The translations under genes and the position numbers were made by a program. 64,000 nucleotides of DNA from an uncultured Trichococcus sp. (GTDB lineage Bacteria > Bacillota > Bacilli > Lactobacillales > Aerococcaceae): positions 1,753,168 through 1,817,167 of the forward strand of contig NZ_OY764015.1 of the NCBI RefSeq assembly GCF_963667775.1, read 5' to 3'. The notes under the pieces are model-generated. The model searched no databases. It was given only the letters and a program-made list of their open reading frames with translations, and was not told where the DNA came from. The first letter of the stretch is position 1. Every line of letters starts with the position of its first letter. Positions 21,477 through 23,396 of this stretch are shown here, piece by piece.

Positions 21477-21502
21477 AGCCAACCTCCGGAAGGAAGTTGG
21501 CT
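21477..21502 (-). terminator. Terminator of gat transcript
   Basis: On the minus strand AGCCAACTTCC pairs with GGAGGTTGGCT and is followed by seven Ts. It lies about 460 bp beyond the gatB stop; the structured repeats fill the gap and so are probably transcribed as a long 3' UTR. Confidence 0.8.
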
Positions 21503-21552
21503 GGAATGCGTTCAACGCAGACGCGAATTGTCACATCCTATTAGTCGAACTC

Positions 21553-21586
21553 TGAATTGCAGGGGGTTCCACCTAACCGCAATTCA
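21553..21586. repeat. Structured repeat, internally deleted copy
   Basis: Outer arms TGAATTGC/GCAATTCA enclose only AGGGGGTTCCACCTAACC. Compared with the copy at 21856-21958, the inner stems are deleted. Confidence 0.65.
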
Positions 21587-21610
21587 TCGTATCCTATCGC
21601 AAACGCGTTC

Positions 21611-21709
21611 TGAAAAGCAGATACCGCTCCCGTTTCGCAAATAACGTAGTGAACAAAAGAGGTTCACTTCGTTATTTGCTCCAACGTCCGGGTATCTAAA
21701 CGCTTTTCA
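21611..21709. repeat. Structured nested-stem repeat, copy 1
   Basis: Outer stem TGAAAAGC (21611-21618)/GCTTTTCA (21702-21709); second stem AGATACC (21619-21625)/GGTATCT (21691-21697); inner stem GCAAATAACG (21637-21646)/CGTTATTTGC (21670-21679). All arms are perfect complements although their sequences differ from the other copies. Confidence 0.75.
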
Positions 21710-21733
21710 TCTCGCTCTATCTCAGTTGAGTTC

Positions 21734-21833
21734 TGATTCGCAGAGTTCTCCGCCTAAGTTGACAACCACACGCGGACAAAAAACGTCCGCTTTGTGTTTG
21801 TCCTCTTAGTGCTCGAACTCTACCCGCGAATCA
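21734..21833. repeat. Structured nested-stem repeat, copy 2
   Basis: Outer stem TGATTCGC/GCGAATCA; second stem AGAGTTC (21742-21748)/GAACTCT (21815-21821); third stem CTAAG/CTTAG; apical hairpin GCGGAC/GTCCGC around AAAAAAC. It is followed by the conserved tail TCACATCCTATTAGT. Confidence 0.75.
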
Positions 21834-21855
21834 TCACATCCTATTAGTCGAACTC

Positions 21856-21958
21856 TGAATTGCAGGGGGTTCCGTCTAACGCTATTTAGGCCCATCCAGC
21901 CAAACCCGGGCTGGTTGTTCCTAAATCTCGTTAGTACTCGCCCCCTACCCGCAATTCA
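21856..21958. repeat. Structured nested-stem repeat, copy 3, abutting gatB stop
   Basis: Outer stem TGAATTGC/GCAATTCA (21951-21958); second stem AGGGGG/CCCCCT; third stem CTAACG/CGTTAG; apical hairpin CCAGCC/GGCTGG. The tail ATCGTATCCTATC continues into the gatB stop codon at 21966-21968. Confidence 0.75.
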
Positions 21959-21965
21959 TCGTATC

Positions 21966-23396
21966 CTATCTTTTTTCTAACTCCTGCGCGAGTAGTTGGT
22001 TGACCATGCCTGGGTTGGCTTGGCCTTTGGTTTGTTTCATGATTTGGCCTACCAGGAAGCCTTTGGCGCGGTCTTTTCCGGCTTTGAAGTCGTCAACGGA
22101 TTGTTGGCTGTTGTCCAAAACGGCGTTGATGATCGGCAATAGTTGCGACGGATCGCTCATTTGGATCAGGCCTTCTGATTCGACGACTGCTTTTGCGTCG
22201 CCGCCTTTTGTTGCCAACAGGCGGAAGACTTTCTTGGCGATCTTCGTGCTGATGGTGCCGTCTTCGATCAATGTGATCATGCCGGCAAGGTTTGCTGGCG
22301 TCAGTTTCGTGTCGGCCAGTTCCACTTTTTCGCTGTTCAGGTAGGCTGATACTTCGCCCATCAACCAGTTGGAAGCCAATTTGGCATCCGCACCGGCAGC
22401 AAGGGTACCTTCAAAGAAGTCGGACATTTCTTTCGAAAGTGTCAATACCATTGCATCGTACTCAGGCAGGTCGTATTCAGAAATGTATCTTTCACGGCGT
22501 TTTGCAGGCATTTCCGGAATGCTGGCTTTTACGCGGTCGATCCATTCTTGGGAAACGGTCAAGCCCGGCAGATCCGGTTCCGGGAAGTAACGGTAATCAC
22601 TTTCGCCTTCTTTGACGCGCATCAGGATCGTTTCGCCATTTGTTTCATCGAAACGGCGTGTTTCCTGTTGGATGACCCCGCCAGCGTTCAATACTTGCGC
22701 TTGGCGTTTTTCTTCATGAGCCAAGCCTCTGCGGACGAAGTTGAAGGAGTTCAGGTTCTTCAATTCCGTCTTCGTGCCGAATTTTTCTTGGCCGAATGGG
22801 CGGATGGAAATGTTGGCATCGCAACGCATGGAGCCTTCTTCCATCTTCACATCGGATACATCTGTGTACATGATGATTTGGCGTACGGCATCCAGATAAG
22901 CATAAGCCTCTTCAGGAGAGCGCATATCCGCTTCCGATACGATTTCGATCAATGGCGTTCCTTGACGGTTCAAATCGACATAGGAATAGCCGTCCGATCC
23001 GTGCATGTTTTTGCCGGCATCTTCTTCAAGATGGACGCGCTCGATGCGGATCTTTTTCTTAACGCCTTCCACTTCGATTTCAACCCAGCCGTCATGGCCG
23101 ATCGGGTTATCCAATTGCGAAATTTGGTAAGCTTTCGGATTGTCCGGGTAGAAGTAGTTTTTGCGGTCGAAATGTGTTTCCGTCGAGATTTCGCAGTTCA
23201 AAGCCAAAGCGGCCTTCATGCAGAATTCGATAGCTCTTTTGTTGATGACAGGCAAGACGCCCGGGTAGCCCCAGTCGATGACGTTTGTGTTTGTGTTCGG
23301 TTCCGCCCCAAAGTGTGCTGGAGATGGGGAGAACATTTTTGATTCAGTTTTCAATTCCACATGGACTTCCAGTCCGATGACTGTTTCATAATTCAT
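21966..23396 (-). CDS. gatB: Asp-tRNA(Asn)/Glu-tRNA(Gln) amidotransferase subunit B
   Basis: Binds and activates misacylated Glu-tRNA(Gln) or Asp-tRNA(Asn) in the GatCAB complex. The N-terminus [19 protein letters not shown] block (here [26 protein letters not shown]) and the segment [19 protein letters not shown] are family hallmarks. The C-terminus is the tRNA-binding YqeY-like domain. Normal length (476 aa). It is third in gatC-gatA-gatB, 12 bp after gatA. Oddity: the TAG stop lies inside the tail of a structured repeat, and about 460 bp of such repeats separate it from the terminator. Confidence 0.97.

Follow-up and report, generated by a model that had tools for sequence, protein, structure and literature searches.

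Hairpin arrays at three genes of a Trichococcus genome

The DNA analyzed here, termed the window, is a stretch of 64,000 nucleotides from the genome of an uncultured Trichococcus species. Its minus strand contains the gatB gene (21966-23396), an ORF encoding a protein of 476 amino acids that matches the NCBIfam model GatB. A tandem array of hairpin-forming repeat units (21520-21970) is located between the stop codon of gatB and the intrinsic terminator of this gene (21471-21501), which was recognized by eye from a GCCAAC..GTTGGC stem and a T-run in the sense strand. The stop codon, T|AG, occupies positions 21968-21966, and the adjoining unit begins with the AG of this codon. All units of the array are on the minus strand, and covariance models were used to delimit the four longer ones. 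Unit 1, the unit proximal to gatB, has a length of 122 nt (21846-21967), and its sense strand reads 5'-AGGATACGA..GAGTTCGACT. It is followed by unit 2 of 119 nt (21724-21842), by unit 3 of 118 nt (21601-21718), which has a class B apex, and by unit 4 (21543-21595), which has an internal deletion and a length of 53 nt. At the distal end, a repeat match and the sequence itself revealed the decayed remnant of a further unit (21522-21541), and the region 21522-21577 is 93% identical to the region 21825-21880. A first-pass annotation of this locus had listed three complete copies and one internally deleted copy of the repeat; all of them are present, but their boundaries are wider than had been proposed. 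A stem-loop terminator pattern was found past the gatB array in 11 of 12 orthologues of the genus, and is absent in locus L074.

Two further arrays are present in the window, again on the minus strand. The second array (35464-35677) contains a full unit (35557-35677) and a partial one (35464-35553), and it abuts the TAG stop codon of a CBS/ACT-domain ORF of 217 amino acids (35676-36329; d = -2, with d denoting the distance of the array from the stop codon). In T. flocculiformis (L117), an array was found at the same ORF. The third array is made up of one full unit (59007-59125) plus a partial match (58933-58995). The stop codon of glpK (59117-60628) is a UGA at positions 7-9 of this unit (d = -9), such that the last two glpK codons and the UGA lie inside the repeat (59117-59125).

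Other elements were also observed in this part of the window. An IS630-like transposase, encoded in two adjacent ORFs with DDE_3 and helix-turn-helix matches, is situated directly beyond the gatB array (20003-21044, minus strand). A pair of the IS200/IS605 type is encoded on the plus strand (16213-18217); it is comprised of a Y1 transposase detected with Pfam (16213-16668) and an OrfB_IS605-like ORF that scores under the Pfam cut-off. Inverted repeats of the CCGGGAAT type form a second repeat family between the IS630-like ORFs and the gatB terminator (21290-21450), and several other species likewise show this family at their gatB loci.

The units share a hairpin shape, but not the sequence of the stems

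In a typical unit on the minus strand, the sense strand opens with 5'-AG-R-R-Y-G-N-GA, which is followed by a first stem of 8 bp of free sequence. The second stem has 7-8 bp and usually starts with A-U, G-C, and a bulge of 3-6 nt separates the two stems on the 5' side only. Above the second stem, a purine-rich internal loop leads to the apex, for which two main arrangements exist. The descending side contains the second arm, CUGC, the first arm, GA and the 3' end, which reads, e.g., GAACGCGUUU, GAACUCAACU or GAACCCGACU. The pairs of arms quoted in the first-pass annotation exist and are complementary, as was verified by parsing the sequence by hand; according to the covariance-model boundaries, the outer stem described there is flanked by a weak terminal helix and conserved ends. 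The unit length is 118-122 nt within the window and about 110-140 nt across the family.

The five full units of the window, folded as single strands, had energies of -51.1 to -59.1 kcal/mol and z-scores of -7.0 to -8.5, and the observed energy was matched by none of the 200 dinucleotide shuffles generated for each unit. The values for units 1, 2, and 3 of the gatB array were -59.1 kcal/mol (z -7.9), -57 kcal/mol (z -8.5), and -51.1 kcal/mol (z -7.2), respectively. The shape of the hairpin is conserved, while the sequence of the stems is free; the outer stem was represented by 59 different 8-mers among 105 stem combinations.

Covariation was analyzed with two sets of units. A search of the own genome by sequence alone yielded 51 nhmmer rows, and the 43 that covered at least 100 model positions were kept as full copies. 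In these copies, both sides had changed with retention of pairing at 27 of the 28 predicted pairs. The second set was an alignment of 48 units, which came from five other genera as well as the own genus; a structural model had been used to find the units from outside the own genus, and these are, therefore, biased towards paired arms. In this alignment, all 28 modelled pairs had changes on both sides, 84.9% of the cells paired compared to 56.4% in shuffles, and double-change cells numbered 395 compared to 134 in shuffles. When the partner was slid by one column, pairing fell to 42-50%. One of the five measures, the number of further pair types, was not above that of the shuffles (82 versus 78.3; 92/500). 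The MAFFT alignment of the 43 copies shifts the arms of class B units by one column, so the automatic consensus undercounts them; the 48-unit alignment retains five rows of class B units from the own genus in which the second stem is displaced in the same way. Parsing by hand places both class B arms. The proposal that the structure is under selection was borne out by both sets.

The first-pass annotation had described the wrong strand, however, and both the types of mispairs and the folding energies identified the reverse complement as the functional one. The sense strand folded more stably in 262 of 268 distinct units when RNA parameters were used (mean -53.0 versus -45.9 kcal/mol), and in 261 of 268 units with DNA parameters. 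For the analysis of mispairs in the two basal stems, 214 units were given, 39 were skipped, and nine combinations with more than four mispairs were set apart. The 1575 cells of the sense strand contained 64 G.A, 14 C.U, 37 G.U, and 27 A.C mispairs, and the respective numbers by distinct context were 35, 14, 31, and 22. The excess of G.A over C.U mispairs supports the sense strand as the folded one, which at the gatB locus is the minus strand, i.e., the strand of gatB. G-U pairs amounted to 2.3% of the basal-stem cells, barely above A.C, although RNA families usually show more of them. That G.U and A.C are nearly equal in number is no argument for RNA over single-stranded DNA, and the rarity of G-U pairs does not look like a constraint that acts on RNA only. 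Covariation with so few G-U intermediates makes the family a case for asking which of the two is selected.

Arrays start at the stop codons of diverse genes

Before the arrays were counted and related to genes, matches of palindromic units to themselves in antisense were discarded. De-duplication by 80-nt keys resulted in 164 distinct arrays with 300 units. In 82 of these, the array started between -2 and +6 nt from the stop codon of the gene on the sense side. The other end of the array served as a control, and there a stop codon was found within the same distance in 3 of 164 cases. As the genes at the 82 anchored arrays fall into 63 distinct families, not all of these arrays are independent. 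The numbers of arrays were 23 at -2, 5 at -1, 11 at 0, 15 at +1, 6 at +2, 11 at +3, 9 at +4, and 2 at +5; past this position, only one array each was found at +12, +16, +17, and +26, and the cut-off at +5 is thus sharp. Another eight of the 164 arrays were located at -12 to -3, and seven of them were at -9, where the stop codon is the unit's own UGA at positions 7-9.

The distance was 7-40 nt for 4 and 41-400 nt for 31 of the 164 arrays, and for 39 no ORF of at least 100 amino acids was in range on the sense side, so that a total of 70 arrays had no such ORF within 40 nt. Inspection by eye revealed that the first unit had gone undetected in several of the cases above 40 nt, in which the distances were near 117-125 or 213-216 nt, and that an inserted mini-element explains the distance in L013 and L029. 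Some of the arrays without a nearby ORF look like cases of an undetected first unit or of a small gene. Apparent exceptions, with distances of 50-239 nt, are L012, L014/L039, L062/L111, L086, and L190. The stop-codon rule and the fixed orientation hold wherever the gene of an array could be read. The position that the suggested 3'-UTR element would have behind gatB was confirmed in a form stricter than claimed, as the start of the array is tied to the stop codon.

The host genes are ordinary and diverse, and include gatB, glpK, argS, groEL, hisIE, ychF, mnmE, purH, glnA, and others; they share no evident function. Past the array, terminator-like sites occurred within 200 nt in 56 of 157 cases on the sense strand, compared to 34 on the antisense strand and 3 in shuffled sequences. 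The position of the arrays and the order of array and terminator would fit a structured RNA at the start of the 3'-UTR.

The family is widespread in Lactobacillales

The first-pass annotation had named many genomic copies as an observation that would support its claim. The own genome contained 46 matches, some of them partial, with covariance model R1 (E<=0.1) and 47 with model R2 (E<=0.01), and further copies were found across Lactobacillales. Each of 13 genomes of the own genus had 8 to 41 matches (R1), and 21 of 76 genomes of the family matched (R1, E<=0.001). In the genome G007, which has a size of 2.0 Mb and belongs to the same genus as Aerococcus kribbianus, at least 150 matches were obtained, and about 120 among the matches listed were at distinct places. 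Much of the order Lactobacillales thereby gains a large family of structured repeats that is apparently uncatalogued. When this order was sampled evenly, matches were obtained for 91 of 295 genomes, representing 36 of 74 genera (E<=1e-4), and in a phylum-wide sample the own genome was the single match among 398; both samples undercount because only about a dozen candidates per genome were scored and strict filters were applied. In the samples searched, the hairpin units are restricted to Lactobacillales.

A search with the exact junction pattern returned 63 named stretches, 47 of which contained model matches. These included strong matches in Aerococcus, Trichococcus, Carnobacterium maltaromaticum, and Pediococcus stilesii, and weaker ones (E 0.005 to 1e-8) in Granulicatella, Streptococcus suis, S. 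massiliensis, and a Ligilactobacillus MAG. Of the remaining 16 stretches, one was from Ligilactobacillus and the others were from unrelated bacteria. A distant BLAST search with the three window units, which would miss divergent units, gave no match in plasmids and phages at 1e-5, and a close-sequence search of IMG/VR with the junction pattern, of which the same is true, gave none either. Locus L095, named Streptococcus sp. 263_SSPC, has three arrays with units that by eye resemble those of Carnobacterium, and it possibly represents a contamination of the assembly.

Arrays are polar and differ between related species

The gatB slot was filled in all 12 orthologues that were found in the 13 genomes of the own genus, and the junction was always T|AG. 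The identity of the units differs between the species, and the unit of L070 is chimeric. In the genus Aerococcus, model matches were obtained at 3 of 15 gatB loci. The A. kribbianus locus has four units, which start at TAA|AGG. In another of the three loci, the match is short and degenerate, at 17-61 nt past the stop codon. The third, from a second species of the Aerococcus group (L144), has four units in the opposite orientation, and these perhaps belong to a convergent neighbour gene. Of the 12 Aerococcus loci without a model match, the slot was read as empty in eight, and the stop codon was not located in four. Behind a DegV-family gene, model-matched units were present at the stop codon in 6 of 12 species of the own genus, short remnants of units were recognized by eye in four (L202, L203, L204, and L208), and nothing was found in two (L199 and L209). 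The presence of an array at a given gene thus differs among related species. At this DegV-family gene, GC-rich repeats (CTCCGGC..GCCGGAG) were observed that follow, replace or interrupt units (L199-L204 and L208).

A comparison of the own genome with the genome G069 showed that 11 of 13 G069 array genes examined also carry arrays in the own genome; conversely, 11 of 23 array genes of the own genome were met among 14 G069 loci, which are a subset of the G069 arrays. Given this overlap, movement of the units would be slow.

The arrays are polar, with intact units near the stop codon and decayed ones at the distal end. Past the distal end, 94 of 158 arrays had the start of a decayed unit, compared to 10 of 158 with a unit end ahead of the proximal start. 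The proximal unit ranked better in 43 of 67 arrays (one-sided p=0.014), with the rank in the cmsearch list, not the score, being compared. The last base before a unit, contributed by the gene end or a spacer, was identical to the last base of the following spacer in 87 of 150 cases, compared to 48 expected, and the likeness of the flanks fades outward. This fits either a short target duplication or homogenization of the arrays.

Signs of recombination were also found. The gatB arrays show unequal recombination, and mismatched arms that appear to be joined from two kinds of units were recognized by eye, e.g., in L016:2548, L016:2669, and L023:2164. Such chimeric units with broken stems suggest recombination between copies. 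The pair L073 and L075 was considered as proof of the gain of a unit at the stop-proximal edge and was rejected, because unequal recombination of [c1][c3][c2] blocks explains the difference equally well.

Comparison with known repeat families

The first-pass annotation had related the repeats to no described class, and this assessment is supported, as neither of the two refutation tests named there went against it. No family of Rfam 15 reached the gathering threshold at the units of the window and 20 loci from relatives; away from the units, a T-box was matched in L016, and two matches below the threshold were obtained in the window at E<=1. A description of this hairpin family was not found in the full-text literature searched, which covered titles and the beginnings of abstracts and lay mostly outside subscription papers. 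To our knowledge, no dispersed bacterial repeat is tied this strictly to the end of translation.

Several known systems share individual features with the units. REP/BIME sequences are palindromic extragenic repeats downstream of genes, which occur in arrays and affect mRNA ends. REPs have a length of 20-40 nt, a conserved sequence with a GTAG-type foot, and associated RAYT (Y1) enzymes, and their arrays often alternate in orientation, whereas the units described here have a length of about 110-140 nt, a variable stem, and a single orientation within an array. The attC sites of integrons are single-strand hairpins with extra bases on one side, in which the shape is conserved and the sequence is free, and they are located just behind stop codons in gene orientation. 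The units would resemble them in all of these respects, i.e., the hairpin, the one-sided extra bases, the free sequence, the vicinity of the stop codon, and the gene orientation; however, a conserved terminal pair of R-boxes was not seen by eye, and the neighbours are housekeeping genes. CRISPR arrays are also polar, with fresher units at one end. This likeness concerns the layout only, i.e., arrays that are fresher at one end and decayed at the other, but built of hairpins and not of spacers between identical repeats. Sequence-conserved terminal repeats shared with an autonomous IS, which characterize MITEs, were not found in the 1.1 Mb of loci scanned.

Palindromic repeats known as ERIC occur in enterobacteria. 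Elements of this ERIC/RU type are dispersed, mobile intergenic repeats of 103-168 bp, and differ from the units in being enterobacterial and, as far as the available part of the source goes, in having no stop-codon rule (PMC2759123). According to the excerpts available, BOX of S. pneumoniae and RepSU1 of S. suis are small, modular intergenic stem-loop repeats with about 120 copies, and a mobilizing element, ISSpn2, has only been proposed for BOX (PMC3049150). The units resemble BOX as small interspersed intergenic repeats with predicted stem-loops. However, BOX is described there as an assembly of boxA, boxB, and boxC modules of conserved sequence, whereas one hairpin is one unit here, and as occurring in several gene contexts with a gradually decaying distance to genes (PMC3049150); the units have a free stem sequence, and their position and orientation are tied to stop codons. 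Anchoring at stop codons is not reported in the available parts of PMC3049150 or PMC2267715. In S. suis, the loci L080, L096, and L131 contain weakly matching units of the present family (E 0.005 to 3e-5).

We place the units among the small interspersed repeats, of which BOX, REP/BIME, ERIC, and MITEs come closest, as a variant that is set apart from these by the free stem, the fixed orientation, and the anchoring at stop codons. That they form a distinct class rather than such a variant appears doubtful to us at present.

A proposed origin of the arrays and its alternatives

The hairpin shape is strongly constrained, yet the position of the units is set by stop codons. Either a mobile element finds stop codons, or a hairpin that abuts the ribosome is useful at many unrelated genes, and both would be new. 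On balance, we lean towards the explanation that the units are mobile, or formerly mobile, hairpin repeats, which are anchored at stop codons and would form the beginning of the 3'-UTR when transcribed. Both the movement and the role in RNA are what we infer from their arrangement. New units would be, or would have been, added at the stop-proximal edge of the array by an enzyme that recognizes the folded coding strand by its shape and not by its sequence, and units would be reshuffled through recombination between copies. After transcription, the first unit would represent the start of the 3'-UTR, its basal helix would begin just ahead of the stopped ribosome, and it would shield the end of the message up to the terminator. 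Between the stop codon and the first long helix lie 7-14 nt, which places the start of this helix approximately where the front of a terminating ribosome would be. Because, in anchored arrays, no more than about five bases separate the stop codon and the unit, little naked RNA would be left between the ribosome and the hairpin, and this short gap may suggest protection from nucleases or termination factors. The idea of a small mobile element had already been put forward in the first-pass annotation. The dispersal over unrelated genes, the empty orthologous slots, and the similar short flanks agree with it, but a mobilizing enzyme was not found: no transposase, relaxase or recombinase could be tied to the units in the 1.1 Mb of fetched loci, which are a small part of the genomes. 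A more far-reaching version, which we put forward tentatively as possible though not probable, is a new class of mobile elements that home to stop codons, are recognized by shape, are inserted in a fixed orientation, and are stacked into polar arrays with the newest unit at the stop codon. If this were true, the insertion machinery would sense the end of translation, either directly or via the mRNA and the ribosome.

An unlikely alternative is that the units are cis-acting RNA elements selected by the host. Insertions could then occur at any place, but copies would be kept only within reach of the terminating ribosome, and mobility would be ancient and irrelevant. The hairpin would then help termination, ribosome release or message stability. 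The sharp cut-off at +5 nt and the one prevailing orientation would be expected in this case, as would the better folding of the sense strand in 262 of 268 units, the maintenance of arrays at the same gene across a genus while the identity of the units changes, and the ordinary housekeeping character of the host genes (gatB, argS, groEL, ychF, mnmE, purH, glnA, glpK, and hisIE). Host selection fits less well with the slots that are empty or decayed in relatives, with the units that are often chimeric or broken by other small insertions, with the lack of an evident function common to the host genes, and with the rarity of G-U pairs. This rarity, together with arms that change in concert, instead speaks for selection of the folded coding strand as DNA. 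The units would then be sites of single-stranded-DNA recombination or transposition that are read by shape, by analogy with integron attC sites or hairpins of the REP/IS200 type, and their transcription would be incidental. The one-sided bulge of 3-6 nt and the variable apex may recall the attC layout, the sense strand is preferred also with DNA parameters (261 of 268 units), and a Y1 transposase of the IS200 type is encoded in the window (16213-16668). This enzyme is, however, about 5 kb away from the gatB array, no recombinase is linked to the units, and a DNA site would not by itself explain the anchoring at stop codons. This reading appears slightly less likely to us than host selection.

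Very improbable, and already disfavoured by the present data, is that the units are ordinary MITEs or decayed IS ends that were moved by a common DDE transposase, and that their position reflects the tolerance of insertions behind genes. It is true that they are small, palindromic, intergenic, and present in several dozen copies, that pieces of an IS630-like DDE_3 transposase adjoin the gatB array (20003-21044), and that repeats of pneumococci, according to the available excerpt, show an over-representation between genes that converge (PMC3049150). But terminal repeats should retain the sequence read by the transposase, and this is at odds with the 59 8-mers in 105 combinations of the outer stem. 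Tolerance would result neither in a single orientation nor in the cut-off at +5, and no long element with unit ends was found in the 1.1 Mb of loci scanned.

The search for a long autonomous version, with arms more than 170 nt apart, found none in the same 1.1 Mb of loci, and revealed six candidates of 180-275 nt; the three in L073, L071, and L032 can be read as another small element inside a unit. An end that is presumably IS605-like (..TTTGTACCAAG..) was recognized by eye inside gatB units of three species (L065, L071, and L074). Inside or at the edge of units in L073, L075, L013, and L029 lies a mini-element (..GTGACCGTACCGGTCAAGTGTATCATG..) that is several dozen bases long, and the units, therefore, serve as landing sites for other elements.
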